28,868 nucleotides of DNA, from IMG/VR virus record IMGVR_UViG_3300025079_000016, positions 1-28,868 of that record; one strand, given 5' to 3'. The notes beneath the pieces were generated by a model that made no database searches, was not told the origin of the DNA, and saw nothing but the letters and a program-made list of their open reading frames with translations. The stretch's first letter is position 1; each line of letters opens with the position of its first letter. Shown here one piece after another: positions 4,425-23,038 of the stretch. A program made the translations under genes and the position numbers. Origin of the DNA: a virus.

Positions 4425-4450
4425 TTTGTGCGTTGACAGCCTGTTTATAG
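4325..4450 (+). CDS. Possible 41-aa peptide in the inter-arm region
   Basis: ATG 4325 is preceded by AAAGGAG at 7 nt spacing, an excellent ribosome site. The frame reads MDVEAQLGDARDAKLQHHRN and ends with a Cys-rich CNLCSMLCALTACL. It contains the promoter-like motif of 4425-4461 in its last codons, which argues against it being a maintained gene. It resembles no family I know, and composition alone does not decide. Confidence 0.22.
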   Translation: MDVEAQLGDARDAKLQHHRNAENLNWGCNLCSMLCALTACL

Positions 4451-4461
4451 AAGGTTTAGCA
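4425..4461 (+). promoter_or_regulatory. Late promoter-like bipartite motif, copy A (upstream of small terminase)
   Basis: TTTGTGCGTTGA at 4425-4436 is followed by TTTAGCA at 4455-4461. The same two parts recur at 7764-7799, and the first part recurs at 11684 and 23005 with weaker second parts, always just before a late gene block. The first part ends in TTGACA here, a perfect -35 hexamer, with 17 bp to TTAGCA. It is read as a promoter for the packaging genes; a phage-specific or sigma factor is unknown. Confidence 0.6.
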
Positions 4462-4463
4462 AT

Positions 4464-4486
4464 GGGGGGAGAGAGGGAGAGGGGGG
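4464..4486 (+). repeat. 23-nt purine-only tract with near mirror symmetry
   Basis: The tract consists only of G and A: a G6 run, AGAGA, G3, AGA and a second G6 run. It is close to a mirror repeat, so triplex or G-quadruplex formation is conceivable. It lies 18 bp upstream of the small terminase start in the presumed 5' leader; a proper ribosome site (AGGAGAG) follows it separately. Confidence 0.55.
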
Positions 4487-4503
4487 CTACCATAGGAGAG
4501 TAG

Positions 4504-4881
4504 ATGAGCAATATAGAACAAAGAAAGCTAACCCATAGACAAACAGCGTTAGTAGATACGCTCGTAGCAAATGGTTGTACAATAAAAGTAGCTGCCGCAG
4601 AAGCCGGATATGCAGCTGGTGAAGCTGGAAGAGTGAGTGCTTCCAAAGCCTTACGTCAACCACACGTACAGCAATACATGATGCAAAGAGTGAATGAGCA
4701 GTTAGGATTGAACGCTACAACTGCTGCAGTGCGAGTAATGAACCTAGCGAATGGAGCTAGATCAGAGTATGTACAGCTAGAAGCAGCGAAGGATATTCTT
4801 GATAGGGCTGGCTACAAGCCGATAGATCGTAGTCAAGTGCAAGTAGCTGGGGATATTCGGGTTAGTATAGACCTAGGCTAG
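4504..4881 (+). CDS. Terminase small subunit
   Basis: The 125-aa protein has the layout of phage small terminases. The N-terminal DNA-binding helices (LTHRQTALVDTLVANGCTIK) lead into VAAAEAGYAAGEAGRVSASK, the recognition-type helix-turn-helix with the typical AAxxAGYAxxxARVxASKxLR pattern. PHVQQYM and a long helical oligomerisation region follow, and the tail ends at VQVAGDIRVSIDLG. The small subunit would select viral DNA for packaging and recruit the large ATPase subunit. The start has AGGAGAG seven bases upstream. The large subunit gene lies 1.36 kb downstream, separated by six tiny genes, an unusual gap. Assignment rests on motif and context. Confidence 0.8.
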   Translation: MSNIEQRKLTHRQTALVDTLVANGCTIKVAAAEAGYAAGEAGRVSASKALRQPHVQQYMMQRVNEQLGLNATTAAVRVMNLANGARSEYVQLEAAKDILDRAGYKPIDRSQVQVAGDIRVSIDLG

Positions 4882-4918
4882 CGGTAGGGGCCTCCAAAAC
4901 TTGGCCACAGTTGCTAGC
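4877..4918 (+). other. Inverted-repeat structure after the small terminase gene
   Basis: GCTAGC at 4877-4882, containing the stop codon, is repeated at 4913-4918. Between them GGCC (4889-4892) and GGCC (4903-4906) flank CCAA-AAC-TTGG. These can nest into one stem-loop. There is no T-run after it, so an RNA processing site or weak terminator is more likely than a strong intrinsic terminator. Confidence 0.35.
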
Positions 4919-5003
4919 GAGTAGTCCCAAACAGACATTATTGTTAAAAAAGGTTCGCCTAAAAATATTTATCTGATATATGGTTTATTGAAAGGGATTT
5001 GAG

Positions 5004-5288
5004 ATGAGCACACCAGCTTGGACTAGGAAGGAGGGTAAGAACCCTAAAGGTGGTTTGAATGCCAAGGGTCGTGCTGGCACTGGTATGAAGGCTCCTGTTA
5101 AGAGTGGTGATAATCCTAGACGTGCTAGTTTTTTGGCTAGGATGGGTAATATGAGGGGGCCAGAGAGGGATTCTAAGGGCAAGCCTACTAGACTTCTTCT
5201 TAGTTTACAGGTGTGGGGTGCGAGTTCAAAGGCTGATGCTAGGGCGAAAGCTAGAGCAATTAGCAAGCGGAATAAGGCGAAGGCATAA
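5004..5288 (+). CDS. 94-aa basic phage protein (DUF6321-like)
   Basis: The sequence follows a pattern I know from many phages. WTRKEGKNPKGGLNAKGRAG comes first, then KAPVKSGDNPRRASFLARMG, then RDSKGKPTRLLLSLQVWGAS and a basic end (SKADARAKARAISKRNK). I believe this family is DUF6321. It is complete at 94 aa, very rich in K, R and G, and has no hydrophobic core long enough for a membrane span. Function is unknown. It is the first of six tiny genes between the two terminase genes, so a role in DNA packaging or virion DNA binding is suggested by place and charge only. Its stop overlaps the next start by one base. Confidence 0.78.
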   Translation: MSTPAWTRKEGKNPKGGLNAKGRAGTGMKAPVKSGDNPRRASFLARMGNMRGPERDSKGKPTRLLLSLQVWGASSKADARAKARAISKRNKAKA

Positions 5289-5458
5289 TGGCTGTTAATG
5301 CATCTGGTAATTATACTAAGCCTAAGATGAGAAAGAATTTATTTAACAGGATTAAGGCTGCTAGTGTTCAAGGCACTGCTGCTGGTCAGTGGTCGGCTAG
5401 AAAGGCACAACTATTGGCAAAGCGGTATAAAGCTGCTGGTGGTGGGTATAAGTCATGA
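5288..5458 (+). CDS. 56-aa basic phage protein
   Basis: ATG at 5288 overlaps the previous stop (TAATG) and the stop overlaps the next start (ATGA). The product opens MAVNASGNYTKPKMRKNLFN and ends QWSARKAQLLAKRYKAAGGG plus a few residues. This pattern (NASGNYTKPxMRKxLFxxIKA, GQWSARKAQxLAKxYKxxGGGY) recurs in phage genomes, usually beside the same small basic genes. No function is known. Strong conservation of such a short sequence and the perfect overlap with both neighbours support it as a real gene. Confidence 0.75.
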   Translation: MAVNASGNYTKPKMRKNLFNRIKAASVQGTAAGQWSARKAQLLAKRYKAAGGGYKS

Positions 5459-5694
5459 AGAAGCCTCAGAAGTCCTTATTGAATTGGGGCAAGCAGAAGT
5501 GGCGCACCAAGTCTGGCAAAAAGTCTAGTGAAACTGGTGAGCGTTACCTTCCTTCTAAGGCTATTGCTGCTCTTAGTGATTCTGAATATGCAGCTACAAC
5601 CAGAGCTAAACGAAAGGGTAAAGCGTCAGGCAAGCAGCATGTGGCTCAACCTAAGAAAATCGCAACCAAAGTAAGGAAGTATAGAAATGCCTAA
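5455..5694 (+). CDS. 79-aa basic phage protein
   Basis: The protein is 79 aa with about one third K and R. It opens KKPQKSLLNWGKQKWRTKSG, continues through SETGERYLPSKAIAALSDSE and YAATTRAKRKGK, and ends KKIATKVRKYRNA. I recognise it as a recurring small phage protein (KPQKSLxxWxxQKWRTKSGKxS...GERYLPxKAI); it may be what some databases call DUF5872, though I am not sure of the number. Role unknown. Its start shares ATGA with the upstream stop and its end overlaps the 41-aa gene by 8 bp. Confidence 0.75.
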   Translation: MKKPQKSLLNWGKQKWRTKSGKKSSETGERYLPSKAIAALSDSEYAATTRAKRKGKASGKQHVAQPKKIATKVRKYRNA

Positions 5695-5812
5695 TGTTAT
5701 GGGAAAGAAGTATCCGTACACTGCTAAAGGAATAAAGGCAGCTAAGGCTGCTGCCACCAAAGGTATGCCCAAGAAAAAGAAGAAGGGTAAATCTCTTCTT
5801 GGGAGATACTAA
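5687..5812 (+). CDS. 41-aa lysine-rich phage peptide
   Basis: The frame opens MPNVMGKKYPYTAKGIKAAK and ends in a lysine cluster (MPKKKKKGKSLLGRY). The opening MPNVxGKKFPYTxxGxxAAK is a recurring phage peptide pattern found near the other small basic genes of this region. It overlaps the 79-aa gene by 8 bp and ends 2 bp before the next start. Function unknown; the positive charge suggests nucleic-acid contact. Confidence 0.7.
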   Translation: MPNVMGKKYPYTAKGIKAAKAAATKGMPKKKKKGKSLLGRY

Positions 5813-5814
5813 GT

Positions 5815-6048
5815 ATGGCTTGGTATTATCCTAGTGGTGAGTTGTATGTAGGTGATACTCATAAGATAGCGAATGTAACGTACTCAGGCACTAATCATAT
5901 GTCTGATTCGCGTAGATTGGTAGAGGGGCCAGAGCCAGAACGTGCTAGAAGCTCCAAAGGTAGGTTAAGGGCAGATGATCCCTCTACACTTGAGATTAAT
6001 GAGGCATATCAGAAGCCAAAGCCTAAAAGGAAGGCTAAGAAGAAGTGA
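5815..6048 (+). CDS. 77-aa phage protein with basic tail
   Basis: The product has an N-terminal part with aromatic and beta-prone residues (MAWYYPSGELYVGDTHKIAN, then VTYSGTNHMSDSRRLVEG) and a C-terminal basic tail (KPKPKRKAKKK). The N-terminal WYYPSGExYxGxxHxxxxxxxSGxxHxxxSxRL pattern recurs in similar tiny phage genes. There is no membrane segment and no known function. The stop shares bases with the GTG start of the next gene, so the two are probably translationally coupled. Confidence 0.7.
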   Translation: MAWYYPSGELYVGDTHKIANVTYSGTNHMSDSRRLVEGPEPERARSSKGRLRADDPSTLEINEAYQKPKPKRKAKKK

Positions 6049-6245
6049 GTTTTATAGGTTCTATTCCCCAGCAAGACCTAGTAATGTTGCGCGGAATTGT
6101 AAGAAAAGTACATTTTGCTCACGTTGAAGCCAAGTATGGTAAGAATCTTATTACAGATCATGAATGTGACAAGCTAATTGATAGTATTGCACCAGAGGTT
6201 GTGCAGAATATGATTAGATTTGGTGTGGATAAGGGTCTTAGGTAG
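6045..6245 (+). CDS. 66-aa hypothetical protein just before large terminase
   Basis: The gene starts with GTG at 6045 (GTGA overlap with the upstream stop) and ends in TAGTG shared with the terminase start. The product is 66 aa and helical, with the block QQDLVMLRGIVRKVHFAHVE and HECDKLIDSIAPEVVQNMIR; unlike its five neighbours it is not strongly basic. The motif ITDHECDKLIDSxxPxxxxxxIRxGVDxG resembles small phage proteins often placed directly before the large terminase. Perhaps it is a packaging accessory; function unknown. Confidence 0.68.
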   Translation: MSFIGSIPQQDLVMLRGIVRKVHFAHVEAKYGKNLITDHECDKLIDSIAPEVVQNMIRFGVDKGLR

Positions 6246-7774
6246 TGGTTGATTTCAAGTACAAGCCTGATGGTGATGTACTCAAATCGTTTATGAAGGA
6301 TAATACTTTTCTTCGCGCTATTCGTGGGCCTGTTGGCTCTGGTAAGTCTGTTGGCTGTTGCATTGAGGTGTTTCGCCGCGCTCTTGGTCAGGGGAAGAAC
6401 GCTGCTGGAATAAGAAGAAGTAGATGGGCTATCATTCGTAACACCAACCCACAGCTTAGAACAACTACTATTAAGACTTGGCTTGATTGGTTTCCAGAAA
6501 GTGATTGGGGTAAGTTTACTTGGTCTGTTCCTTACACTCACCATATTAAGAAGGGTGATATAGACCTAGAGGTTCTCTTCTTAGCACTTGATAGGCCCGA
6601 AGATGTTAAGAAACTTCTATCATTAGAGCTTACTGGCATCTGGATTAACGAGGCAAGAGAGATTCCCAAGTCTATTATTGACGCTTGCACGATGCGTGTT
6701 GGCAGATTCCCTTCTATGCGAGAGGGAGGCCCGACTTGGACAGGAGTTATAGCTGATACCAATGCGCCAGAAGAAGATCACTGGTGGCCTATCATGTCTG
6801 GTGAGGTTCCTGTTCCAGATCATATACCAAGAGAGCAAGCCAAAATGCTTGTTAAGCCTGACAACTGGAAGTTCTTTACTCAACCCTCTGGGATGAAAGA
6901 AGTGCTATCAGAAGAGGGCGAAATACTTAGCTACCAGCCTAATAAACATGCCGAAAACTGCAAAAATATGATGAAAAGTTACTATCCAAATCTTATTCAA
7001 GGTAAAACTAAGAGTTGGATTGACGTTTATGTTATGAATAGGCTGGGTGCTATACAAGATGGAAAGCCTGTGTACCCGATGTTTGCATATGAAACACATG
7101 TTGCTAAAGAGGAAATACCAGTGGGGGCTGACTTGCCTTTATACATTGGAATTGACTTTGGGCTTACCCCTGCGGCTGTAATTGGTCAGAAGATTAGAGG
7201 AAGATGGCTTATTCAGTCTGAGGTTGTAGCCTTTGACATGGGCATTGTTAGGTTTGCAGAGGTGTTAAGGAATGAGATTGCTACTAGATATTCTCAAGTT
7301 TCCGATGTCTATATTTATGGTGATCCAGCAGGTGATTTTAGGGCGCAAACGGACGAATCTACCCCTTTCCACATACTTAGAGGTGCTGGCCTACGCGCAT
7401 TTCCCGCCCCGTCTAATTCCGTTGATCTCCGCTTGGAATCGGTTACGACTCAGCTTAATAAAATGGTGGAAGGGAAGCCAGCATTCCTAATTGATCGGCG
7501 CTGTTCTCAGCTTATCAAGGGATTTGATGGAGGATATGGCTATAAACGCATGGAAGTTAGCGGCGAAAGATACGCAGACAAGCCAGATAAGAATATGTTT
7601 TCCCACATTCATGACGCATTGCAGTATTTATTGTTAGGTGCTGGTGAGGGTAGGGCATTAATGTCCAATCAAAAGCCTTCTCAGGTAATTAATGCAAGAA
7701 AAGACTTTGATGTATTTACCAGAAAGCCAAAGGTTGGTGTAAAAAAACCTAGTGTGTGGTCACTTGTGCGTTGA
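6245..7774 (+). CDS. terL: Terminase large subunit
   Basis: The protein is 509 aa, starting at GTG 6245. The N-terminal ATPase shows Walker A at residues 28-35 (GPVGSGKS), an RNTNPQLRTTT motif near 65-75 and Walker B with catalytic acid at 132-136 (IWINE). The C-terminal RNase-H-like nuclease begins around YIGIDFG with D304, continues through YIYGDPAGDFRA and ends with a conserved DALQYLLLG, giving the three acidic metal ligands. It pumps DNA into the empty head and cuts concatemers; the small subunit at 4504-4881 supplies specificity. Length is normal for a podovirus enzyme. Its stop codon is part of the promoter-like motif copy B. Confidence 0.95.
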   Translation: MVDFKYKPDGDVLKSFMKDNTFLRAIRGPVGSGKSVGCCIEVFRRALGQGKNAAGIRRSRWAIIRNTNPQLRTTTIKTWLDWFPESDWGKFTWSVPYTHHIKKGDIDLEVLFLALDRPEDVKKLLSLELTGIWINEAREIPKSIIDACTMRVGRFPSMREGGPTWTGVIADTNAPEEDHWWPIMSGEVPVPDHIPREQAKMLVKPDNWKFFTQPSGMKEVLSEEGEILSYQPNKHAENCKNMMKSYYPNLIQGKTKSWIDVYVMNRLGAIQDGKPVYPMFAYETHVAKEEIPVGADLPLYIGIDFGLTPAAVIGQKIRGRWLIQSEVVAFDMGIVRFAEVLRNEIATRYSQVSDVYIYGDPAGDFRAQTDESTPFHILRGAGLRAFPAPSNSVDLRLESVTTQLNKMVEGKPAFLIDRRCSQLIKGFDGGYGYKRMEVSGERYADKPDKNMFSHIHDALQYLLLGAGEGRALMSNQKPSQVINARKDFDVFTRKPKVGVKKPSVWSLVR

Positions 7775-7799
7775 GTTTTGTTAGGACTTGTGTTTAGCA
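7764..7799 (+). promoter_or_regulatory. Late promoter-like bipartite motif, copy B (upstream of portal block)
   Basis: TTGTGCGTTG at 7764-7773, overlapping the terminase stop, is followed after exactly the same distance as in copy A by TTTAGCA at 7793-7799. A ribosome site (AGGAG) for the next gene starts 10 bp later. Identical spacing of both parts over unrelated filler is the strongest evidence that they work together. Confidence 0.6.
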
Positions 7800-7819
7800 G
7801 AGATAACTAGGAGATCATT

Positions 7820-8722
7820 ATGTGCAAAACCGATAAGAAACAGAGTAGTGTAAGGGTAACTGAGGCCACCGATACAGACACAACAAAGGCTTTAACTATT
7901 GTAAGCACTACGCCCCAAGGTGTTAAAAAGAAATTGTTTGGGGCTGATGATAAAGCTTCCTATGTAACCTTATCTGATGGCACTAAAGTTTATTCTGAAA
8001 CTGGCTCTGCTTTAAATACTTCTGAAGAAGTTGCACAAGCTACAGCAAGGGCAGAAGAAATTATAGCAGAAAGGCAATCTCTGATTGATGATTCTGCCGC
8101 TGCTCAAAAGAAACTTGATGATGAAGCTGCCGCAGAAGCTGCTGCTCAAGCTGCCGCCGCAGAAGCTGCTGCCGCTCAAGCCGCAATAAATGATGCCTCT
8201 AAATTAAAAGATCAACAAATTACAGATTTAGAAAATGAGCTTCAAAAAGAAATAGATGCGGCAGAAGCTGCTGGTGAAGCCTCTACTACTCTTTTTACTG
8301 AAAAAGTACAATCACTTGAGACTCAAATATTAGATTTAGAAAAGGCACATGCTGAAACTGTAGGTGAATTTACTGCTGCTGCGGCTGCTGGCATTGGAAA
8401 TACAAGTCAAACGGTAACTCAAATTATTGAAACAGCACCCGATGCTGCGATGGTAGAGCAAGAACGTCTTGCTGCTGCTGAACTAAGAAAGCAAAGAATA
8501 GAACGTGCTAGGTCTAAGCAGTCATTACTTAAAAGACGCGAAGAAAGAATACAAGAAGTAGGCTCTGGTCGTAAAGTATTAAGCGGAGAAGAAATGGACT
8601 TGGGAATTAATTACAGAGACTCACTTATTTCTGCCTCTACTGGCAAGCGAATGGGGTCTGGTCGGCGCTCTCTCCTTACTGGTTCTACTGGTGGAATTGG
8701 TTACTATAGTAGGTTTGTATAA
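7820..8722 (+). CDS. Ala-rich coiled-coil protein upstream of the portal
   Basis: The product is 300 aa. Residues about 70-160 are extremely rich in A and E, with heptad-like spacing (coiled coil), and KLKDQQITDLENELQKEIDA continues it. The middle (residues 185-200) is Ala/Gly-rich; the C-terminal part is basic and ends in GRRSLLTGSTGGIGYYSRFV, a short tail motif I recognise from proteins found directly upstream of portal genes in marine podoviruses. There is no catalytic motif. It may be a head-tail or core assembly factor; evidence is context only. The stop overlaps the portal start by one base. The N-terminal half is probably fast-evolving and the tail conserved. Confidence 0.65.
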   Translation: MCKTDKKQSSVRVTEATDTDTTKALTIVSTTPQGVKKKLFGADDKASYVTLSDGTKVYSETGSALNTSEEVAQATARAEEIIAERQSLIDDSAAAQKKLDDEAAAEAAAQAAAAEAAAAQAAINDASKLKDQQITDLENELQKEIDAAEAAGEASTTLFTEKVQSLETQILDLEKAHAETVGEFTAAAAAGIGNTSQTVTQIIETAPDAAMVEQERLAAAELRKQRIERARSKQSLLKRREERIQEVGSGRKVLSGEEMDLGINYRDSLISASTGKRMGSGRRSLLTGSTGGIGYYSRFV

Positions 8723-10278
8723 TGATGAATGACCCAAAGAAATACATGGAGAGATACGAGAAAGCAAAGTCTCATAGGCAAAACTTTGTTGATTTGTTTG
8801 AGGAATGCTATGAGTATGCCCTTCCTCAACGTGAATCCTTTTTCTTTGAAAGCGCAGGGCAGCGCAGAGATGATAAAATCTTTGATGAAACTGCTGTTGT
8901 TGGTGTTCAAGAGTTTGCATCTCGTTTGCAGTCTGGTCTTGTTCCTAACTTTGCGCGATGGGCAGACTTAACTTCTGGTTCTGAAATACCGCCCGAAGAT
9001 AAAGACGCAGTAGACAATGATCTTGATGAAGTAACTGAGTATGTATTTGAAATACTACAGAACTCTAACTTTTCTCAGGAAGTACACGAATCTTTTATGG
9101 ACTTAGCAGTAGGCACTGGCGTTCTTTGCATTGAAGAGGGCGATGCTATTAACCCCATTACCTTCTCAGCCGTTCCTTTGCCTCATGTGGTATTGGATAC
9201 TGGTGCTGATGATAAGATTGACCATGTGTTTCGTGAGCGAAAGGGCATAAGAAACTCAGAGTTATCTATTATTTACCCAGAAAAGGGGTTTGATAAAAGA
9301 GTTTCTGATCGGATCATGCGCGATCCAGAAGGTAAGTGTACAGTATTAGAGGTGGTTTGTAAGGATTACTCTAAGAAAAACGAAGAAGCTTACCTACATT
9401 ATGTAATTGATATGGCAACCAAAACTAATCTTACTGAAAATAAGTTTGATGGTGTAGGTTCTAATCCGTATGTTTGCTTTCGTTGGACTAAATGTGCTGG
9501 TGAAGTATATGGTAGAGGCCCATTGATTAACGCTTTGTCTGCGATTAAGACTACTAACCTTACTATTCAGCTAATACTTGAAAATGCACAAATGGCTATC
9601 TCCGGTATTTATCAAATGGATGATGATGGCATTATAAATCCAGATACAATTAACTTAGTCCCCGGAACAATTATTCCAAAATCTCCACAATCAGGTGGAT
9701 TACAACCCATTCAATCGGCTGGACGTTTTGATGTTGCTGATCTTGTACTAAGTGATATGCGTCAGAATATTAAACGTGCGCTTTACAGTGAAATGCTAGG
9801 AAACCCAGATAAAACCCCTGCATCTGCTACAGAAGTTGCCGAGCGTATGGCTGATTTATCTCGTAGAATAGGCTCTGCATTTGGTAGATTGCAAGCTGAG
9901 TTAGTGCAACCTGTATTACAGCGCGTAGTACACATACTTCGTAAACAAGGTCGCATTGATTTGCCTACAGTTAATGGCAGAGAAGTTAAGATTCGTTCTG
10001 TTTCTCCTTTAGCACAAGCGCAATCCAACCAAGATATATCTTCTGTTGCACGTTTTCTTGAAATGATTCAAGCATACTTTGGTGGTGATATGACTAACAT
10101 GCTAATTAATTCAGAAGAAACTGCTATTTATTTAGCAAAACAATTTGGTGTTCCTGACAGCTTGATTCGTGATGCAAATGAGCGTAAGCAGATAGTTGCA
10201 ATGATGCAACAAATGGCGCAAGCTCAACAGCAAGCTAATGCACCAGCAGAAACGGAACAACAGATTGCCGCAGAATAA
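8722..10278 (+). CDS. Portal / head-to-tail connector protein
   Basis: The 518-aa protein matches the T7-like head-tail connector family (PF12236). It opens YEKAKSHRQNFVDLFEECYE followed by YALPQRESFF, and carries SRLQSGLVPNFARWADL, VGTGVLCIEEGD, a beta-rich wing region, GRGPLINALSAIKTTNL and the stem/crown helix block with TPASATEVAERMADLSRRIG. It would form the 12-subunit ring at one head vertex through which DNA enters and leaves, binding the terminase and later the tail tube. The C-terminus is glutamine-rich (MMQQMAQAQQQANAP). Length fits the family (about 500-560 aa). It overlaps the next gene by 41 bp. Confidence 0.93.
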   Translation: MMNDPKKYMERYEKAKSHRQNFVDLFEECYEYALPQRESFFFESAGQRRDDKIFDETAVVGVQEFASRLQSGLVPNFARWADLTSGSEIPPEDKDAVDNDLDEVTEYVFEILQNSNFSQEVHESFMDLAVGTGVLCIEEGDAINPITFSAVPLPHVVLDTGADDKIDHVFRERKGIRNSELSIIYPEKGFDKRVSDRIMRDPEGKCTVLEVVCKDYSKKNEEAYLHYVIDMATKTNLTENKFDGVGSNPYVCFRWTKCAGEVYGRGPLINALSAIKTTNLTIQLILENAQMAISGIYQMDDDGIINPDTINLVPGTIIPKSPQSGGLQPIQSAGRFDVADLVLSDMRQNIKRALYSEMLGNPDKTPASATEVAERMADLSRRIGSAFGRLQAELVQPVLQRVVHILRKQGRIDLPTVNGREVKIRSVSPLAQAQSNQDISSVARFLEMIQAYFGGDMTNMLINSEETAIYLAKQFGVPDSLIRDANERKQIVAMMQQMAQAQQQANAPAETEQQIAAE

Positions 10279-10525
10279 CCACATTGGTTTAGATGGTCTA
10301 GCAAGAACAACGGCAGAAGAAGATAAGTTAAGTTTGAATATCGGAACTGTTTTTGCAACCCCAGCAGGTAGTGAGGTTCTTCGCTATCTACGCAGTATTA
10401 CAATAGAAATGGTAAGTGGCCCAAATATAACCACTGACGAGTTGCGCCATTTAGAGGGCCAGCGTTATCTTGTTGGCCTTATTGAGCGTCATTCCCAACG
10501 AGCGCATAAGGTAAAAAACAAATGA
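10238..10525 (+). CDS. Bbp19-like phage protein
   Basis: The 95-aa product has a helical core: LNIGTVFATPAGSEVLRYLR, then ITIEMVSGPNITTDELRHLE and GQRYLVGLIERHSQRAH. The pattern VFxTPxGxxVLxYLR..., LRHLEGxRxxVGxIE is the Bbp19 type seen after portal genes in many podoviruses. Function is not established; a role in head completion is inferred from its fixed place between portal and scaffold. The start at 10238 lies inside the portal gene without an obvious ribosome site, and no better in-frame start exists before the conserved core. The end overlaps the scaffold start (ATGA). Confidence 0.75.
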   Translation: MHQQKRNNRLPQNNHIGLDGLARTTAEEDKLSLNIGTVFATPAGSEVLRYLRSITIEMVSGPNITTDELRHLEGQRYLVGLIERHSQRAHKVKNK

Positions 10526-11238
10526 GTGAAGAAGCAGTAGAAGAAACAGTAGAAGAGAAGGACTTTGTTGTAGCAGAGGATTCTCAACCAGAACGTCCTG
10601 AGTGGCTACCAGAAAAGTATAACACTGGTGAGGACTTGGCAAAAGCATACACAGAGTTATCAAGTAAGTTAGGGCAAAAGGAAGAGGATTTACGCAGTAA
10701 GTTTCATGAAGAGTTACAAGCCGAAGCATTTAAAGATAGGCCCGAAACCGCTGGTGGTTATGAAATACCAGAAGGCATAGACGAAGAATCAACGCTTGAT
10801 AGCGATCTATTAAAGTGGTGGTCTGAGCATTCTTTTGAGAATGGGTTTAGTCAGGACGAGTTTAACAAAGGCTTAGAGATGTACACCAGTGCTATAAGTG
10901 CAAATCAGCCAGATTTAGATGCGGAAGCAAAAAAGCTTGGTGATAACTCTAATGCTAGAATAGAGGCTGCTGGTTTATTTGCCAATCAGTTCTTTGGAGA
11001 AGATCATATGCCAGCCATAGAACGTCTTGCTGAAAGTGCTGATGGCATTATTGCTTTAGAGTTCATTATGGAAAAGATGAAATCACCTTCTGTAAATAGT
11101 GATTCTGTGTCTGCAAGCAAAGTTACTGAGGAAAACCTTAGAAAAATGATGGAAGATGAACGCTATTGGCATCCAGCTAGGCGCAGCAATGATTTTGTAA
11201 AGGAAGTTCAGAATGGATTTAAAACCATTTACGGATGA
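10522..11238 (+). CDS. Capsid assembly scaffolding protein
   Basis: The 238-aa protein is strongly acidic at the N-terminus (EEAVEETVEEKDFVVAEDS) and then has RPEWLPEKYNTGEDLAKAYT, the conserved entry motif of T7-like scaffold proteins. A charged helix, a PETAGGYEIPEGID linker and helices near the C-terminus (EENLRKMMEDERYWHPARRS) follow. The last helix with RYWHPARR and a C-terminal basic/aromatic end suits binding to capsid subunits. It should guide coat protein into a procapsid around the portal and then leave. Position directly before the gp13-like and capsid genes supports this. The C-terminus overlaps the next gene by 26 bp. Confidence 0.85.
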   Translation: MSEEAVEETVEEKDFVVAEDSQPERPEWLPEKYNTGEDLAKAYTELSSKLGQKEEDLRSKFHEELQAEAFKDRPETAGGYEIPEGIDEESTLDSDLLKWWSEHSFENGFSQDEFNKGLEMYTSAISANQPDLDAEAKKLGDNSNARIEAAGLFANQFFGEDHMPAIERLAESADGIIALEFIMEKMKSPSVNSDSVSASKVTEENLRKMMEDERYWHPARRSNDFVKEVQNGFKTIYG

Positions 11239-11749
11239 ACCTAAGATAATTTCTAGGGGTGGCTCTTATCTTACCCCTATGACTGAGGACCATATTGATG
11301 AACTTGTAAGAGTTTTAGCATTTGAGAATGTTAGAGAGCTTGCTATGTCTGGTCAAACAAATATCCGAGAAGCCCTAGAGGAAATGTACTCTACTTGTGA
11401 AATGTATGTAGTACGCAGTAAGGAGGGCGATCTTCTTTGCATGGGTGGCTTGTCATATAACGATGATTGGCCTCAGTTGTTTGCAATGTTTTCTAGGAGA
11501 ATGAAAGAAAACTTTCATTTAATGGCTAGAGGTTCAAAGATGCTTATCAACTTCTTAGACAAAACTCAGGAGGGTATGACCATGACAATACTCTCTGAGT
11601 ATGCCCCTATGATTAATTGGGCAGCATGGTTAGGCTTTGAACCGATTGGTATCAGTGAAGATAAAAATATTAAGTATGTTGAATTTGTGCGTTGCAATCC
11701 AAATAAAAACAATGTTTACAATTCCGCATCGCGGCCCGCAACGCATTGA
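11213..11749 (+). CDS. T7 gp13-like, acetyltransferase-fold protein
   Basis: The 178-aa protein resembles the T7 gp13 family (PF11090), whose members look like GNAT acetyltransferases. Visible parts are LTPMTEDHIDELVRVLAFEN, an internal MYVVRSKEGDLLCMGGLSYN strand pair, a helical MLINFLDKTQE segment and the GNAT-like end block YAPMINWAAWLGFEPIG. In T7, gp13 is needed for proper virion assembly but is not a major component of the particle; enzyme activity is unproven. Here it lies between scaffold and capsid, not among the internal virion genes as in T7. Promoter motif copy C is read through its last codons (EFVRCN). Confidence 0.72.
   Translation: MDLKPFTDEPKIISRGGSYLTPMTEDHIDELVRVLAFENVRELAMSGQTNIREALEEMYSTCEMYVVRSKEGDLLCMGGLSYNDDWPQLFAMFSRRMKENFHLMARGSKMLINFLDKTQEGMTMTILSEYAPMINWAAWLGFEPIGISEDKNIKYVEFVRCNPNKNNVYNSASRPATH
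11684..11720 (+). promoter_or_regulatory. Late promoter-like bipartite motif, copy C (upstream of capsid)
   Basis: TTTGTGCGTTG at 11684-11694 is followed by TTTACA at 11715-11720, matching copy A and B in position but lacking the G. It sits in the 3' end of the gp13-like gene and 109 bp before the capsid start, a fitting site for extra transcription of the most abundant structural protein. Confidence 0.55.
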
Positions 11750-11769
11750 TCGGCCCCTTTTGGGATACC

Positions 11770-11812
11770 TGAGTTGATATGATAGTGCGGATACCCGTAG
11801 CACCGAAACTCA
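11770..11812 (+). other. Structured leader of the capsid gene
   Basis: TGAGTT (11770-11775) pairs with AACTCA (11807-11812), enclosing GTGC (11785-11788) paired with GCAC (11800-11803) and a small inner CGG/CCG pairing. Together they form a branched hairpin that ends 16 bp before the capsid start and leaves the ribosome site (TAGGA) free. It may stabilise the capsid mRNA or be an RNase III site, as in T7 leaders. Confidence 0.4.
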
Positions 11813-11828
11813 ACTTAGGACTATTGAA

Positions 11829-12638
11829 ATGGCTAATACAATCGACACAGCCTTTATCAAGCAGTTTGAGACAGAGGTTCACATGGCATATCAGCGTATG
11901 GGTTCCAAGCTACGGAACACAGTACGCTCAACCAATGTGACAGGCTCAATTGCTCGATTCCAAAAAATAGGCACTGGCTCTGCCACAACTAAATCTCGCA
12001 ATGGTAATGTTACTCCTATGGAGTTAGCACACACCACAGTTGAAGCTACAATGGCTGACTACTATGCTGCAGAATATATTGACAAACTTGACGAATTGAA
12101 AACAAATATCAATGAGCGTCAAGCTGTAACTCAATCTGCTGCTGCTGCATTAGGTCGTAAAACTGATGAACTAATTACAACGGCACTAGATGCTGGCGCA
12201 AATAGTACACAGATTCACGATGCTAGTTCTGCATTAGAAAAAGCTGATTTACTTTCATTGTTTCAAACATTTGGCAATGCAAGTATTCCAGAGGACGGAC
12301 AACGCTATCTTGCTATGTCTCCTTCTGGTTTTGCTGACTTGTTCTTGATTACTGAGTTTGCTTCTTCTGACTTTGTTGGTCCACAAAACTTACCTTTTGC
12401 TGGCGGTATGACAATGAAAGAGTTCTTAGGATTTAAGATATTCTCAACGTCTGCTGTAGCTGGTGGTAAGAACTTTGCTTATCATACAACTGCTGTTGGT
12501 ATGGGTGTAAACTCTGATGTTTCCACTGAAGTAAACTATGTAGCCGAGAAAGTTTCTCATCTTGCAACCTCAATGATGTCCATGGGCGCTGTTGTTATCG
12601 ACGATAACGGTGTCTATGAAGTCCTTGATAATAACTAG
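11829..12638 (+). CDS. Major capsid protein (Phage_capsid_2-like)
   Basis: The 269-aa protein matches the short HK97-fold-type capsid family I know as Phage_capsid_2 (PF19821). It has TAFIKQFETEVHMAYQRMGS then KLRNTVRSTNVTGSIARFQKIG, the conserved TTVEATMADYYAAEYIDKLD (the ADYxxAExIDxLD belt), ALGRKTDELITTALDAGANS, RYLAMSPSGFADLFLITEFA, FLGFKIFSTSAVAG and a closing EKVSHLATSMMSMGAVVIDD. Length is small compared with T7 gp10 (about 345 aa) but normal for this family. It forms the icosahedral shell. It has its own upstream promoter-like motif and structured leader, and the terminator at 12919-12936 lies downstream, so it is likely the most highly transcribed gene here. Confidence 0.88.
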   Translation: MANTIDTAFIKQFETEVHMAYQRMGSKLRNTVRSTNVTGSIARFQKIGTGSATTKSRNGNVTPMELAHTTVEATMADYYAAEYIDKLDELKTNINERQAVTQSAAAALGRKTDELITTALDAGANSTQIHDASSALEKADLLSLFQTFGNASIPEDGQRYLAMSPSGFADLFLITEFASSDFVGPQNLPFAGGMTMKEFLGFKIFSTSAVAGGKNFAYHTTAVGMGVNSDVSTEVNYVAEKVSHLATSMMSMGAVVIDDNGVYEVLDNN

Positions 12639-12649
12639 GAGGTTATAGA

Positions 12650-12913
12650 ATGGCTTATAGTGCAAGTGGTCTCTCTCGTATCGGTGGCGACTCAAATGGT
12701 AGTTTGTGGATGTATACATCTGCAGATGCAATTGCTACTGTAAACACAGAAGGTTACTTTAACAGCGCAGCTAATATGCTTGCTGTTCGTGACTTGATTA
12801 TTGTTTGCGATACAAACGTCCCAACAACTAACTTCTGTAATGTTCTTTCTAATACTGGTTCAGTTGTAGATGTATCTAATGGTACTGCTGTTGTGGAAAC
12901 CGATGGCGACTAA
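12650..12913 (+). CDS. 87-aa probable head decoration/stabilisation protein
   Basis: The product is 87 aa with beta-prone blocks: MAYSASGLSRIGGDSNGSLW, MYTSADAIATVNTEGYFNSA, VRDLIIVCDTNVP and VVDVSNGTAVVETDGD. The pattern SLW(x)YxSADAxAxVxxxGYF...VGDLIxVxDxxx...VxxSNGTAV is known from small genes located directly after phage capsid genes. The likely role is a capsid decoration or head-completion protein, based on this pattern and place. A good AGGAGG ribosome site precedes the start, in line with high expression together with capsid. Confidence 0.72.
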   Translation: MAYSASGLSRIGGDSNGSLWMYTSADAIATVNTEGYFNSAANMLAVRDLIIVCDTNVPTTNFCNVLSNTGSVVDVSNGTAVVETDGD

Positions 12914-12918
12914 ATACT

Positions 12919-16351: not shown

Positions 16352-16363
16352 AAAGGTTAAGCT

Positions 16364-19300
16364 ATGCCAGTTCTTCGTGAAAGAAAACAATATCAAAGCG
16401 CTGGTCCTGTTGGGGTACTTAGAGTAAATACTGGTGAGCAAGAAAAATATCAGGCCATTTCTAATGCGGCTGACAAACTAACTAAGTTAGCTGTTGGTGA
16501 AATGAGTCGTTCCTCTAAGATTATGGGCGCACAGAAGGCACAAGAAGTCTCTGATGTAATGACCATTGATCCCAAGACAGGAAAACCACAGGCTTTAAAC
16601 TGGTCAGAGCAAAGGCAATTCTTTGGCAGGGATTCGGCAGAAGCTTACCAGCGTGTAATTACCGAAAGGTTTCAACAAGAAATAGATGTTGAGATTAGAG
16701 AAAAGGCTACTCAGCTTGCAATTGAATATGAGAATGACCCTTACTCTGTAGAAAAGTACGAAGATAAAATGAATGCGTACTTAGCTGCTATGGCTGAGAC
16801 TAATTCTGTCGATGGTAAAGAAACTGCATATACTAACTACATTATGTCTCAGGGTTCAGAGTATATTTCTAAGACTACTCTGGCTATGCAAGCTGAAAGA
16901 AAACGTAGGGAGGATGCTAAGACTGCGGCTAGGCTTCAAGAAGTTATTACAAACAGAGATAATGCTTTATATGAATTTGGTTTAATTGGAGATTTTGAAA
17001 AAGCTAACAATATTATTTCTGCTAATGAATCAACATCTACTGATGCTGAAAGTTCAAATTTATTTAAAGCTGGATCAACTTCTTCTGTAGTTCGATCAAG
17101 TATGAGTGCCTTTGCAAAAGGCTCTATTGAAAGGCTTTATAATCAAACAACTTCTGTAGCTGAAAGGGATGCTATTAAGTTTGCAATTAGAACTAATGGC
17201 AAAGAAATGTCTACTCTTAGCGATGATTTAATTAAGCAAGTAAAATCAATTTTACCGTTTATTACCAATCAAACTAGACAGTCTATTCTTTCTAATTCAC
17301 AAGCTTACTCTGCTAACATGAGCAAACTTGAAGCTGTTAAAGCGGCTCAATTAAATGCGAGGGTGCAACGAGATTTAAGAGAATCACTGATAGAATATAA
17401 TCGTGACAACACATTAGCATCTTCTGCCTTATTTAATAAATTAAACAATGCAAAAGATGACAATGAGTTTTTTGCATTTGTTACTGAGTATAGCAAACAA
17501 AGCGAGTTTGATCAGGCAACAATTCGAGCACGATATTTAAACGGACAAATCTCAGAAGATAAATATAATTCTTTAATAAAAGATGAAAGGCGTTCTATTT
17601 TAAATTCTATAATAGCTGCTGGTGCATTAGACGGAAATCAAGAGCAAATAGAAACATTTAGAGATGCTCTTAGCAGCATTAATCCAAAAGTTATTCGCAA
17701 TTTAACTAGAAAACAAAAGGCTATTGTAGCAAGATTAAATAAAAAAATTCCTGTTTCATTTTACAACAGAGAAGATGATTTGGCTCATGTTCAATCTTTA
17801 CTCTCAGGCTCTGTAAACGACCAAAGGAAAAGATTAGAATTATTTTTATATGATGACTTTCTTAGAGACAAGGGAGATGATCTTTTTAAAGAAATGAGAG
17901 AGGGCAGTTTTAAATTAGATGATTTAATTGAATTTGATAAATTGGTTATAGCAAGTAGTATATCAAATGCAAAAAAAGAAGCGTATTTAGCAAAAATAGA
18001 TACTAATAGGGCTATTGGTTTAATAAATAATATTCCTAATATTAATTCTGTAGATATAAATAAAGTTGGTGCTTATGTAAGAAGCAATGGTGAAACAAAT
18101 TTAGGTTTAAGTGAGGAACTTAAAAAAGACGCTGATGCAATACTTGTATATATTAATGAAGAAAATCGTAACAAAATTCAAACAGAATTAACTAGTAGGG
18201 AGTCAGAGCTTAGACAAAACGAAGATGTTTTAAGGCAACAGTTGCAAGAAGAAGCATTAAAGCTAGAGCTTAAAAGCCAAGCTTTAGGGCTTGGTAGTAT
18301 GACAGGTACTGAAAAGACTAAACCTATTAGAGAAGAAATGTCTAATTTAATAAAAGCGAATGGCATTGATATATTTAACATGAATTCTGAAGCAGAAGAG
18401 TTTTATATGGCGGCTAGAACAACTATGCCTCAACATTTAATTGAAGCTTTTAGGAGCCTAGCTTCTGGTACATCTGATATTAAAGGTGCTGATGTTATTT
18501 TAAATCATTTTATTAGACTTTCAAATGATCCAGATGGAAGGGGAGAATTTGTAAATAGGATTGGAAGCCTTTTAAGTAATGAAGATTTTGCAATATTAAA
18601 AGATGCTGCTGAAATTAGAACCTCTCTTGGAGGTCAGGCAAAAAATGGCAGTGAAATTATTCTTGATTTAAAAAATCAAGCAACAAGTAATCTTGCGCAG
18701 ACAAACTATGACAATGTGTTTGGTGATAAAAGCCCTTCTCAATTTGTTGGTGAGCATTATAAAGATGATCCTATGATTGTATCTGAGTTAAGTGCAACAG
18801 CAGAATATCTAGCAAGAACAGGCAATGATAAAGAAACAATTATATCTTTATTAAATGATATTGTTGATGGTCATTATCGGGAATCTGAATATGTTGTTGA
18901 TCCTAGTTTACCTTTAGGAACTCCGTTTAGATCAAGAATGTCTTTAAAGGCTATCTTTCCTGACTTTGATGAAAGGCAAGAGTTTATTAAAAGGGTAAAC
19001 TCAAAACTTCCAGATGGATATTCTCTTGGAAAATCGAGTGGTCCAAAATTAAGCTCAATAGAAGAACATAGAAAACAATTTGGCGGTCAAGAAATTCTTA
19101 AATCTGATACAGTTTTATCTATTGAAGCTGGGGTTTCTGAAGTTAAAGAAGAAACTCAAATATATTTAATGCCATATGGCAATACTGACGAATATCAATA
19201 TTATGCTTATTACAAAGAAAAAAGATCAGGAGAATTAAGGCATCTTGTTCTTATAGCTGACAAAGATATTACAGATGATAAAGGGTTACTTATAGTAAAA

Positions 19301-19474
19301 GAAGGTCAACCTTATTGGCCTATGTTTGATAAAGATACTATGTCTAATTATAGAGATATGATTAAACAAAGAGATATAGATGCTGAACTTAAAAAACTAC
19401 AATCAAGAATAAGTACAGAGGACTTTTCAAAAGCATCTACATTAGCAAGTAAATATCAGCTAAGGTTAAGATAA
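16364..19474 (+). CDS. Internal virion protein C-like (T7 gp15-like)
   Basis: The 1036-aa protein is almost wholly helical and charged, with no membrane segment and no clear enzyme motif. It opens VLRERKQYQSAGPVGVLRVN, includes EQRQFFGRDSAEAYQRVITE near residue 85 and long coiled stretches (SRESELRQNEDVLRQQLQEE). Size and position suit the gp15-like inner-core protein (747 aa in T7; longer in marine podoviruses). It should form part of the internal core and leave with the DNA to build the trans-periplasm conduit. The gene is more AT-rich than its neighbours. No lytic transglycosylase signature is found. The stop overlaps the next start by one base. Confidence 0.72.
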   Translation: MPVLRERKQYQSAGPVGVLRVNTGEQEKYQAISNAADKLTKLAVGEMSRSSKIMGAQKAQEVSDVMTIDPKTGKPQALNWSEQRQFFGRDSAEAYQRVITERFQQEIDVEIREKATQLAIEYENDPYSVEKYEDKMNAYLAAMAETNSVDGKETAYTNYIMSQGSEYISKTTLAMQAERKRREDAKTAARLQEVITNRDNALYEFGLIGDFEKANNIISANESTSTDAESSNLFKAGSTSSVVRSSMSAFAKGSIERLYNQTTSVAERDAIKFAIRTNGKEMSTLSDDLIKQVKSILPFITNQTRQSILSNSQAYSANMSKLEAVKAAQLNARVQRDLRESLIEYNRDNTLASSALFNKLNNAKDDNEFFAFVTEYSKQSEFDQATIRARYLNGQISEDKYNSLIKDERRSILNSIIAAGALDGNQEQIETFRDALSSINPKVIRNLTRKQKAIVARLNKKIPVSFYNREDDLAHVQSLLSGSVNDQRKRLELFLYDDFLRDKGDDLFKEMREGSFKLDDLIEFDKLVIASSISNAKKEAYLAKIDTNRAIGLINNIPNINSVDINKVGAYVRSNGETNLGLSEELKKDADAILVYINEENRNKIQTELTSRESELRQNEDVLRQQLQEEALKLELKSQALGLGSMTGTEKTKPIREEMSNLIKANGIDIFNMNSEAEEFYMAARTTMPQHLIEAFRSLASGTSDIKGADVILNHFIRLSNDPDGRGEFVNRIGSLLSNEDFAILKDAAEIRTSLGGQAKNGSEIILDLKNQATSNLAQTNYDNVFGDKSPSQFVGEHYKDDPMIVSELSATAEYLARTGNDKETIISLLNDIVDGHYRESEYVVDPSLPLGTPFRSRMSLKAIFPDFDERQEFIKRVNSKLPDGYSLGKSSGPKLSSIEEHRKQFGGQEILKSDTVLSIEAGVSEVKEETQIYLMPYGNTDEYQYYAYYKEKRSGELRHLVLIADKDITDDKGLLIVKEGQPYWPMFDKDTMSNYRDMIKQRDIDAELKKLQSRISTEDFSKASTLASKYQLRLR

Positions 19475-22400
19475 TGAAGAATGGTCTTACTGCAGTACAA
19501 GATATTCAAAATAGATTAAGTCCTGAACTTCCAGCTGATTCTCCTACATTTGCCGAAACTGCCAGTGCAACACTTTCACATAGGTATATGCCATTAATAG
19601 ATTATACTAGGGAAGTAAATCAATTTGGTTACGACTATGAGCCAGAAGAAGGTTATGCTGCTGTAGATCATATTCCAAAAGATTTAGAGCAATACACTAC
19701 TTCATTGCTTCGCGCTAACAATCAAAAACATATGGATTTTTTATCTACGTCTTTAAGAAAAAAGCTAGATGTAAGAGAAACATTAGACAACTCAGGTCTT
19801 GGCTCTTTATTTCTTTCAGAAATTTTTGATCCTATTAATTGGGTTGGATTTCCTTTAGCCAGAGGTTTAAGCGCTGGTCGTGCTGCCTTGCGTGTTGGTA
19901 CTGGCACTGGCGCTATAGTTGCTGCTCAAGAATCAATTAGGTATCCATTTGATCCCTTTGCAACAAAAGGAGAAGTAGCTGCTAATGTAGGTACTGCGTT
20001 TGCATTTGGCTCTATACTTGGTGGTTTGTCTAGGATTACTAATACTAGAAAAGTAGTGGCAATAAGGGATGCTGAAATAGAAATAGGAGAGTTGCGAAAA
20101 GCGATTGATCCTGATGATCTTTCTATAGCTCCTAGTTTGTTTACTGATTCTTGGTTGTATAAGTCTGTAACAACGCCAATGAAAAGGATTCTACAGGATA
20201 AAGACCTTCCTGATAGTGTAAAATTAACTACATTAGAAATAGCTAATGACGCTGGTATTTTATTAGCTGCTAACAAAGCTGGTAAGGCTTTAAGGCCATC
20301 TGTATTTCAAAATGCAAAATTATTAGAAGGTGAGTGGGTGCAATCCTACGATGATCTAGTAAGAATCTGGGGAGATTCTACTAAGCAAGGCGTTACTAAT
20401 CCTATGGATTACCTTTATAAGCGCTCTGACTTTGAAAATTGGGTAGAGTCTGTAGACCAAAAAGCAATACAAGGCATAAAGCCAGCCGATGACTTTGAAT
20501 CTAATGCTATGTCAATTATTAATAACTACTATGACAAATGGGAAACAAGATTAACTAAACAAGGCATGATTGGCAACGATACTTTCTACGCAAAAAACAT
20601 ATTAAAAAGACAGGAGGAAATAACTCTTCTTAAACAAAAGTTAGATAAAGCTAAGAATGCAGATTACATTGACACATTAAAAGCTTCTATTGCTAGGCAT
20701 GAGGTAGAAATTAAACATCATGAATCTATGCTTGGTAAGACGATGCCTAAAGGAGAAAATCTTTTTCGTCCTAGATATTGGGATAGGGATGTAATTAGAG
20801 CAAACAGAGAAGAGTTTGAACAAGTTTTATTTAATTGGTTTAGAGACAACCCTGCAACTGTAGCTAAAGCTAAAAACGGTTCTATAGAAGAAATACAATT
20901 ATCAAAAAACCCTGTTGATATTCAATTAAGAGTTACAAGAATGACTGATGATCTTCTTGGTGATGGTGATCCTCTTGAGTTTGATGCTGGTTATTTCGGC
21001 ATGGGCAAGTCAAAGCATATGAAACACAGGGTTGTTGATATACCTAATGATCGTGTTCTTAAATTTATAAATACAAATCCAATTCAAGTAATGAAAGCGT
21101 ATGCAACTCGGGTAGGTTCTCGTTATGAGTTTTCTAGGCAGTTTGGTGGCAAAACTATTGATGAGTTAATGGATACCAAGAAAATAGAAATGCTTGAAGC
21201 TGGTATATCTATAGATAAAACACATGCTCACATGAAGGATATGCGTCATTTATATGAGCGTGTAGCTGGCAGTGTTGTTCGTGATACTAATACTTGGGAC
21301 TTTAAGACTGCTCAAATCTTGCGTGATCTTGCTCAATTAAATTATCTTGGTTCGGCTGGTATATCTACGATTACAGAGCCAGCTAAGATTCTTATGGAGC
21401 ATGGTCTTGGGCCTACATTCCGAGGTTTGTTTAATATTTTGTCTGACAGCCAATTAAAAATGGGGGCTAAAGAACTTCGCATTGCTGGTGAGGCGTTAGA
21501 AATATTGCATGGTAGCTCTCACATGCGCCTTGTGGATGATGTTAATAATAATCCTCTTAAATCTACAGTATTTGATAGGGCTAAGAATTACTTTTATTTA
21601 GCTAACGGACTTGCTCCAATAACTAGAATATTTAAAGACTTTGACGGTATGATGCGTAGTCATACACTTATTGATTATTCTGTAAGATTAGCTAATGACA
21701 AAGCAACTCGTATGGAAATGGAGTATCTATCTCGTTACGGCATAGATGCTGAAGTTGCAAAAAAGATTGCTAATGCTCCTTGGCAACGTGGTAAATCTGG
21801 TTTGTATCTTGCTAATACTAAAGCTTGGTCTGATACTATAGAGTTTCCTTCTACAAAAGCTGAGATTGTAAGTGGCCCAACAAATGCTTACACGCACGGT
21901 CAGACGGGCCTACCTGATGATAGATATAAACCAGCATTTTACACTCATAAGGAAGGGAAAATATATATAGATGAGGAATATATTCGTGATGTTATGTGGG
22001 ATGCTAAAGGCTGGAAAAATCCTAGAATGAAAGGTGTTAAACCTATAGAAGATGGCATTATAAACTCTCCAAATGATTTAGTTTCTTTCATTAAGATGCA
22101 TGAAATTATGCATTCACTTAATAGGCCAGAAGATTTAGATTTATTTGTCGATGGTGTTAAACTACAAAAATATGATGGCAGAAAAAAAGCTCATGTTGCT
22201 GCATACGAAAATGCAATTAATGATTTAGCTATAGTTGAAATTAAAAAACAGCCTAGAGTAGAAGAAAATACTGTTAGAAGGTTTCGCACTGCTTTATCTT
22301 CTGGTGCTGCAAATACAATTTTAATGGGAACCCCTGCTGATAAACCTATAATTACAGATGGTATTGCCTATATTCCTATGCGAGTTGCTAAACAGTTTGG

Positions 22401-22998
22401 AATGAAAGAGGATTCTAAGTATCGCGGTTATGCTAGAGTAGAAAATGGATTGCTTGGATTACCATTCCAGTTTTACAGTTATAGTTTAGCGGCAGTAAAT
22501 AAAATTACAGCTGCTCATGCTCATGGCCAATTAAAGAATCAGTTTGTTGGAATTGCATTATCAATGGGCTTGGGTTACATGGTGCTTGATTACAAAACAC
22601 CAGACTTTGTTGATCTTAGTTTTCAAGATAAGTTTGCAAGATCATTTGATTACTCAGGAACAGCGGCATTATACACTGATTTAATGTATACTGGCATGAC
22701 TACTTCTTTAGCTCTTGGTGGTCCTAATATTACAAACGGATTCTTACAACCTAGATACCCACAACAAAAAGATAACATAGATGCTGCTACTGGCATTCTT
22801 GGTGCTGGCCCTTCTATAGCTGATGATTATATTAGAGGTATGCACGATTTAGTTACTGGTAATGTTGGGGAAGGTACTAAAGAAATAGCTAGAAGTTTAC
22901 CTTTTGCTAGAATGTGGTTTTGGAAAGGTAAGATGAATGAGCTTACTAGAATGTTAGAAACTGAAATAGACGAACCTTCAGGATTTGGGCGTTACTAA
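19474..22998 (+). CDS. Internal virion protein D-like (T7 gp16-like) with embedded zinc-protease motif
   Basis: The 1174-aa protein is in the gp16 place. Near the N-terminus it has GLGSLFLSEIFDPINWVGFP and an Ala/Gly-rich hydrophobic patch (GTGTGAIVAAQESIRYPFDP, then VGTAFAFGSILGGLSR). A region with LNYLGSAGISTITEPAKILM follows in the middle, and NGLLGLPFQFYSYSLAAVNK near the C-terminus, both typical of marine podovirus gp16-like proteins. Unlike T7 gp16 there is no N-terminal transglycosylase. Instead, residues 876-880 read HEIMH, a zincin HExxH motif, with E912 in AAYENAIND as a possible third ligand. It is probably ejected with DNA, and the protease would act on peptides or proteins of the envelope; activity is inferred. 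Confidence 0.75.
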   Translation: MKNGLTAVQDIQNRLSPELPADSPTFAETASATLSHRYMPLIDYTREVNQFGYDYEPEEGYAAVDHIPKDLEQYTTSLLRANNQKHMDFLSTSLRKKLDVRETLDNSGLGSLFLSEIFDPINWVGFPLARGLSAGRAALRVGTGTGAIVAAQESIRYPFDPFATKGEVAANVGTAFAFGSILGGLSRITNTRKVVAIRDAEIEIGELRKAIDPDDLSIAPSLFTDSWLYKSVTTPMKRILQDKDLPDSVKLTTLEIANDAGILLAANKAGKALRPSVFQNAKLLEGEWVQSYDDLVRIWGDSTKQGVTNPMDYLYKRSDFENWVESVDQKAIQGIKPADDFESNAMSIINNYYDKWETRLTKQGMIGNDTFYAKNILKRQEEITLLKQKLDKAKNADYIDTLKASIARHEVEIKHHESMLGKTMPKGENLFRPRYWDRDVIRANREEFEQVLFNWFRDNPATVAKAKNGSIEEIQLSKNPVDIQLRVTRMTDDLLGDGDPLEFDAGYFGMGKSKHMKHRVVDIPNDRVLKFINTNPIQVMKAYATRVGSRYEFSRQFGGKTIDELMDTKKIEMLEAGISIDKTHAHMKDMRHLYERVAGSVVRDTNTWDFKTAQILRDLAQLNYLGSAGISTITEPAKILMEHGLGPTFRGLFNILSDSQLKMGAKELRIAGEALEILHGSSHMRLVDDVNNNPLKSTVFDRAKNYFYLANGLAPITRIFKDFDGMMRSHTLIDYSVRLANDKATRMEMEYLSRYGIDAEVAKKIANAPWQRGKSGLYLANTKAWSDTIEFPSTKAEIVSGPTNAYTHGQTGLPDDRYKPAFYTHKEGKIYIDEEYIRDVMWDAKGWKNPRMKGVKPIEDGIINSPNDLVSFIKMHEIMHSLNRPEDLDLFVDGVKLQKYDGRKKAHVAAYENAINDLAIVEIKKQPRVEENTVRRFRTALSSGAANTILMGTPADKPIITDGIAYIPMRVAKQFGMKEDSKYRGYARVENGLLGLPFQFYSYSLAAVNKITAAHAHGQLKNQFVGIALSMGLGYMVLDYKTPDFVDLSFQDKFARSFDYSGTAALYTDLMYTGMTTSLALGGPNITNGFLQPRYPQQKDNIDAATGILGAGPSIADDYIRGMHDLVTGNVGEGTKEIARSLPFARMWFWKGKMNELTRMLETEIDEPSGFGRY

Positions 22999-23004
22999 GT
23001 ACAG

Positions 23005-23038
23005 TTTGTGCGTTGATGCATTCTAGTTCTTTTTGTAG
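23005..23038 (+). promoter_or_regulatory. Late promoter-like motif, copy D (upstream of tail fibre)
   Basis: TTTGTGCGTTGA at 23005-23016 lies directly after the gp16-like gene. The second part is weaker: TTTGTAG at 23032-23038, three bases nearer than in copies A and B. A ribosome site (AAAGGAG) and the fibre start follow within 25 bp. It would give the fibre block its own transcription start. Confidence 0.5.

Follow-up and report, generated by a model that had tools for sequence, protein, structure and literature searches.

How do phages that build T7-like capsids and tails, and in which no phage RNA polymerase is seen, switch on their late genes? We considered the question for an uncultured virus whose record (IMG/VR record IMGVR_UViG_3300025079_000016) spans 28,868 bases and includes a T7-like structural module; the whole record is referred to here as the window. 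A preliminary description, made from the letters of the window, had noticed a recurrent bipartite motif at the heads of the late gene blocks and had called it a likely phage late promoter. The first part of this motif is the ten-base box TTGTGCGTTG. The explanation that we favour, with somewhat better than even confidence, is that the boxes mark a class of late promoters transcribed by the host sigma70 RNA polymerase and activated by a small phage-encoded protein of the XRE family.

The late box in the window and in its relatives

Four exact copies of TTGTGCGTTG are present in the window (starting at 4426, 7764, 11685 and 23006), all of them on the plus (late) strand, as had been described. 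By chance, 0.08 copies would be expected on both strands together; none of 100 dinucleotide shuffles of the window reached four copies, and no copy with one mismatch was found in the window. Copy 1 (4426..4435) belongs to the putative promoter of the small terminase gene terS, with a -35-like TTGACA and a -10-like TTTAGCA (4455-4461). Copy 2 (7764..7773) is followed by a -10-like TGTTTAGCA (7791-7799), copy 3 (11685..11694), assigned to the major capsid promoter, by TGTTTACAAT (11713-11722), and copy 4 (23006..23015), assigned to the tail-fibre promoter, by a weak TGTAGGTT (23034-23041). The copies had been placed just before block starts. This holds for terS and the tail fibre, whereas copy 2 overlaps the stop codon of the large terminase gene terL, and copy 3 sits in the last codons of the preceding open reading frame (ORF; 11213-11749). 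From the box to the next start codon, the distances are 78, 56, 144 and 55 bp for copies 1 to 4.

Relatives were fetched by their capsid, terL, Hjc-like, f37 and terS proteins. Nineteen of 20 related records contained the box, with 50 exact copies all in the late orientation, while a control with the pattern written backwards gave none. In about 1.57 Mb of related phage contigs, a redundant set, the box occurred 220 times on the late strand and not once on the other; the sole common variant, TTGTGCATTG, was found in the same set 37 times forward and twice in reverse. Many copies elsewhere in the genome, or absence from the same places in relatives, had been named as observations that would speak against a promoter. 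No copies were found elsewhere or on the other strand, and the box did recur at the corresponding places. Of 93 distinct capsid upstream regions, 83 had it about 144 bp ahead of the gene, and at the terL end TTGTGCG was present in 71 of 102 distinct regions, with TTTGTGCATTG in most of the others. The tail-fibre copy lay at the same place in records G001-G005 and G007, and the terS copy was conserved in relatives together with a G-run element before terS. Nine other late genes gave 531 upstream regions, in which no box was seen within 120 bp. The filler between the box and the -10-like element diverged among relatives while the box itself stayed constant.

At the terL end the position of the box relative to the stop codon varies between -22 and +22, so that it falls into differing frames; coding constraint therefore cannot explain the box and was ruled out as its cause. 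Additional copies were observed before a DUF6321 gene in contigs L007, L059, L071, L098, L103, L107, L127, L136 and L138; in L138, two boxes 33 bp apart flank a hairpin. In L123 and L133, a hairpin of the type GTGGAA..TTCCAC lies immediately upstream of the terL-end box.

The box positions coincide with module boundaries, at which phages show mosaicism, and the terS copy stands beside a polypurine element that may be a packaging site. Both circumstances would suit a site of DNA packaging, recombination or RNA processing that happens to fall between genes. Against such a role, which we regard as highly improbable, speak the strict orientation of the box, its fixed distance to the -10-like element and to ribosome-binding sites, and a terS variant that has the consensus TTGACA. 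As judged from its strand, its places and its recurrence in relatives, the shared element before several late operons, found only in the direction of transcription, is strongly supported as a phage late-promoter class, in agreement with the first impression.

Promoter anatomy and the polymerase

Logos were compiled for each class of site (89 distinct sites for the terL end). They share an invariant TTGTGC(G/A)TTG, followed mostly by A or C, and the conservation is carried by ten bases. The second element is looser: a T at +32 and, before it, TG, placed at +28/29 in the terL-end class, +29/30 in the capsid class and +30/31 in the terS class; in the tail-fibre class logo no clear second element was seen. 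The motif is hence bipartite in a qualified sense. The second parts that had been listed (TTTAGCA at 4455 and 7793, TTTACA at 11715, TTTGTAG at 23032) were all found, and the first part is nearly invariant in relatives, but the second is weak and the exact TTTAGCA is not conserved. A similar reservation applies to the -35-like endings TTGACA, TTGAGT, TTGCAA and TTGATG read from the four copies: TTGACA arises from the box at the terS copy, while at the other copies the box supplies only TTGA or TTGC. Compared with the sigma70 reference (TTGACA and TATAAT, 17 bp apart), a -35 of TTGACA is therefore present at terS only, and the -10 is weak and TG-extended. With such a -10, the promoters would be expected to be poor without help. 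The predicted start site lies at about +44 from the box, which at the terL-end copy would be a few bases before the ribosome site.

The sigma70-like nature appears most clearly in the terS class. In relatives whose terS site has no box, TTGACA is kept in the same place, preceded by an inverted repeat of the type GTGACG...CGTCAC. The repeat replaces the terS box directly upstream of TTGACA in L007, L009, L045, L103, L107, L132 and L136, and a degenerate form of it occurs in other relatives, both with and without the XRE gene. At terS, there appears to be a second regulator at work.

Which polymerase would read these promoters? The remark that no phage RNA polymerase gene is visible can be extended to the relatives, including one circularly redundant record. 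No match to the single-subunit RNA polymerase family (PF00940), as expected for T7-like autographivirus transcription, was found in 20 records, although this search had no working positive control, since the control genomes gave no match either. Sigma70 region 2 (PF04542), as a sign of a phage sigma factor of the kind used in T4-like late transcription, had no match in 13 records, while the positive control matched in 10 of 14. Since neither kind of gene was detected, the enzyme at the late promoters is probably the host sigma70 RNA polymerase. A phage polymerase or sigma factor unrecognised by family models might instead use the box as its own promoter, for which a long conserved box with a weak -10 would be suitable, and the window does encode a 1036-aa protein in the virion region (16364-19474) with no PHROG or Pfam match. 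To this we attach very little probability. Besides the negative searches, the circularly redundant record (G002) has no further large non-structural ORF, and the box-less terS promoters retain the sigma70 -35 in place.

The candidate reader of the box

The boxes of a given phage are nearly all-or-none. In 67 relatives both the terL-end and the capsid site were visible; 60 had both boxes, six had neither, and one had the capsid box only. Box-less long contigs contained no copy of the box anywhere. At least five changes of state of the terL-end box are needed on the terL tree, and the best tree has eight. Because presence and absence are coordinated in this way, these comparisons suggest that one factor reads all sites.

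The genes of 17 long genomes, 13 with the box and four without (877 ORFs), were screened for a family that follows it. Only the XRE family was present in 13 of 13 box-bearing and in none of the four box-less genomes; two further hits were antisense ORFs over the XRE locus. In the window, this Cro/C1-type helix-turn-helix (HTH) protein of about 82 aa is encoded on the minus strand at 1151..1399 (Pfam HTH_3, 1.8e-8). Its ORF opens at 1420, and homologues begin at the second Met. The protein is a stand-alone HTH_3 domain (PF01381, 34.7 bits at a cut-off of 23), and its solved relatives include P22 C2 among other XRE structures. When the count was extended to fragments in which the XRE locus and the terL end could both be seen, 68 had both the XRE gene and the terL-end box (33 distinct terL), eight had neither, and there was one nominal exception. 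This exception, L354, encodes a 59% XRE relative; its capsid box is exact, and the one at terL, TTGTGAGTTG, has a single mismatch. Three readers had been put forward earlier, namely a host sigma variant, a phage activator or a polymerase encoded outside the window. A phage-encoded protein is now favoured and would lie inside the window. We propose the XRE protein as the late activator that would read the box.

Other candidates were rejected. A winged-helix HTH_39 protein (499-711) was not found in the box-bearing G002 and G003, and HTH36 occurs in the box-less G010 too. A 79-aa basic protein at 5455-5694 occurs in box-less genomes as well and has no HTH; it shows 85-94% identity across relatives whose terL is about 80-90% identical, and it has no Pfam or NCBIfam match. 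A search of the box-less genomes for repeated k-mers that could serve as a substitute box revealed none evident.

The following course of events is proposed. The small XRE protein, made from the leftward early operon, would bind TTGTGCGTTG, which overlaps the -35; the weak TG-extended -10 comes about 17-19 bp further on. Once bound, it would recruit or stabilise RNA polymerase at all copies together, so that terminase, portal, capsid and tail-fibre genes would be turned on as one regulon. The overlap with the -35 could also suit an operator, on which an early XRE repressor would sit and delay late transcription until diluted or inactivated. XRE/Cro-C1 proteins are mostly repressors, and the XRE early protein of phage phiCbK repressed 93% of its direct targets (PMC10462132). 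The structure of the XRE-less phages argues otherwise. In these, the terL stop codon abuts the next ribosome site and the whole terL-end promoter gap is gone. The promoter itself was thus lost and not just the binding site, which favours activation over repression; had a repressor been lost, a working promoter should remain, while disappearance is expected if the promoter would be useless without its activator. The weak -10 elements also suit an activated promoter, and the operator is considered unlikely.

Several points weigh against XRE-dependent activation. XRE proteins usually bind palindromes as dimers, and the late box is not palindromic. Many terS promoters of XRE-bearing phages have a different upstream palindrome in place of the box. 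The residue following KWE in XRE is suggestive of a specificity contact: Gln was accompanied by G at box base 7 in 20 of 20 distinct proteins, while with Ala, Ser, Thr and others base 7 was A in 15 and G in eight. As a determinant of this base the residue was nevertheless set aside, because only two to four changes occur on the trees and they are inseparable from descent. A second box-less clade (G021, G022, L132, L147, L291, L293 and L305) includes no contig that reaches the XRE locus. Two contigs with terL N-termini 96% (L405) and 90% (L407) like that of G021 carry XRE, their late sites being cut off; if these two phages lack the box, XRE may be necessary but not sufficient. Finally, the XRE-less and box-less genomes G010, G037, G038 and G040 form one clade by terL, and their state may go back to a single evolutionary event.

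This last point would also fit a host alternative sigma factor or activator as the reader of the box, with XRE doing something else and being lost alongside by shared descent. Host regulators such as CtrA are reported to control phage genes in alphaproteobacteria (PMC9437464). Nonetheless, all boxes disappear together among close relatives that presumably share a kind of host, and XRE was the sole gene family to match the box in the 17 genomes; a host reader is therefore judged improbable. A more specific form of XRE-dependent activation would have the 82-aa stand-alone protein as a dedicated late activator of four dispersed promoters, in each of which it would read an asymmetric box of 10 bp fused to the -35. 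Within a marine podovirus group that is very common, the protein and all its boxes would be retained or lost together as one circuit, and phages lacking the circuit seem to depend on the terS promoter only. We give this proposal an even chance.

Genome context, known systems and significance

Two further elements accompany the late promoters. Downstream of box copy 3, the capsid mRNA leader contains a structured RNA (11726..11848, plus strand; model match 108.6 bits), recognised by covariation. In its alignment, 99.4% of cells pair and compensatory changes occur in seven of 11 pairs, a signal that was destroyed by sliding the partner. An internal-loop module, GG-C-CC opposite GG-AYAC-CC, occurs in it twice, and the structure is kept in box-less relatives and in L164. 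No Rfam family matched the leader at gathering score, and its model had no significant match in Rhodospirillales prophages. The polypurine element GGGGGGAGAGAGGGAGAGGGGGG (4464..4487, plus strand) closely follows the terS promoter, where the terS transcript is predicted to begin. Many relatives have it almost letter for letter and others as a reduced G5+ N3-14 G5+ (40 of 41 regions upstream of terS). Possible roles are a packaging (cos/pac) site, or a quadruplex or triplex element.

The structural module comprises terS, terL, portal/adaptor, capsid, tail tubular and internal virion proteins, and tail fibres, while the leftward early arm encodes an O-like replication protein and HTH proteins. 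All late genes located here are on the plus strand. Late block 1 begins with terS (4504..4881; phrog_2538, 2.4e-13) and terL occupies 6245..7774 (phrog_2, 4.1e-20). The first gene after box copy 2 (7820..8722) matches no family and is followed by the portal or head-tail adaptor gene (8722-10278; phrog_332, 3.4e-95). The major capsid protein (11829..12638; phrog_3437, 2.5e-58) belongs to late block 3 and the tail fibre (23061..24995; phrog_21412, 6.6e-20) to block 4. By protein match, the nearest isolate is Pelagibacter phage Hodr (portal 62%), from which the late box is absent; nucleotide comparison of the window with phage isolates gave no match. Contigs L162, L163, L164 and L165 were binned in metagenome-assembled genomes titled Euryarchaeota, Rhodobacterales, Gammaproteobacteria and Opitutae, and such mixed bins are unusable for naming the host.

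The proposed circuit has partial counterparts. In P2/P4, one small activator of the Ogr-Delta type serves several late promoters used by the sigma70 polymerase, Ogr being a zinc-finger protein (PF04606) that binds a dyad near -55. One small activator (here a candidate), several late promoters and sigma70 polymerase are likewise proposed here; the site differs, and no Ogr/Delta zinc-finger Pfam match was found among the early-region proteins scanned. Lambda CII, like our candidate a small HTH activator at the -35, recognises TTGC-N6-TTGC around the -35, whereas the box here is TTGTGCGTTG; the XRE protein weakly matches a CII-like PHROG (phrog_4836, 1.7e-5). Unlike lambda Q anti-termination, with one late promoter and read-through, the window has four separate boxes. 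Protein C of phage Mu belongs to the Mor/C family. It serves four late promoters (Plys, PI, PP and Pmom) with non-consensus -10 and -35 elements (PMC4461284). Dispersed non-consensus late promoters, use of the host RNA polymerase and one small phage protein switching all of them are common to Mu and to our proposal (PMC4461284), in which the activator is a candidate; in contrast, this candidate is of the XRE/HTH_3 type and its 10-bp box is asymmetric and fused to the -35. In a phage-like alphaproteobacterial element of Caulobacter, the gene-transfer agent, the structural genes need the activator GafY, which contacts RpoD at a degenerate -35 (PMC11150451). The GafY site, however, is far upstream, and IHF and the anti-terminator GafZ are required as well; in our case the box adjoins the -35, with four separate promoters in place of read-through. 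TgrL (gp216) of phiCbK is likewise an early XRE regulator of an alphaproteobacterial phage; it mostly represses host genes, and the available part of the source describes no late-promoter role for it (PMC10462132). As proposed, the arrangement works like the Mu late promoters with protein C and resembles GafY, and it is not classed with either system, because protein family, site or position differs.

If the proposal is true, the box and the XRE protein would explain how these phages time the assembly of their particles without a polymerase of their own. With a named box and a named candidate protein, the question of late timing becomes testable by a reporter, with no host culture needed. The box and its strict strand rule provide an annotation marker for hundreds of uncultured marine contigs, and the loss of the circuit as a unit offers a natural experiment in the rewiring of late regulation.

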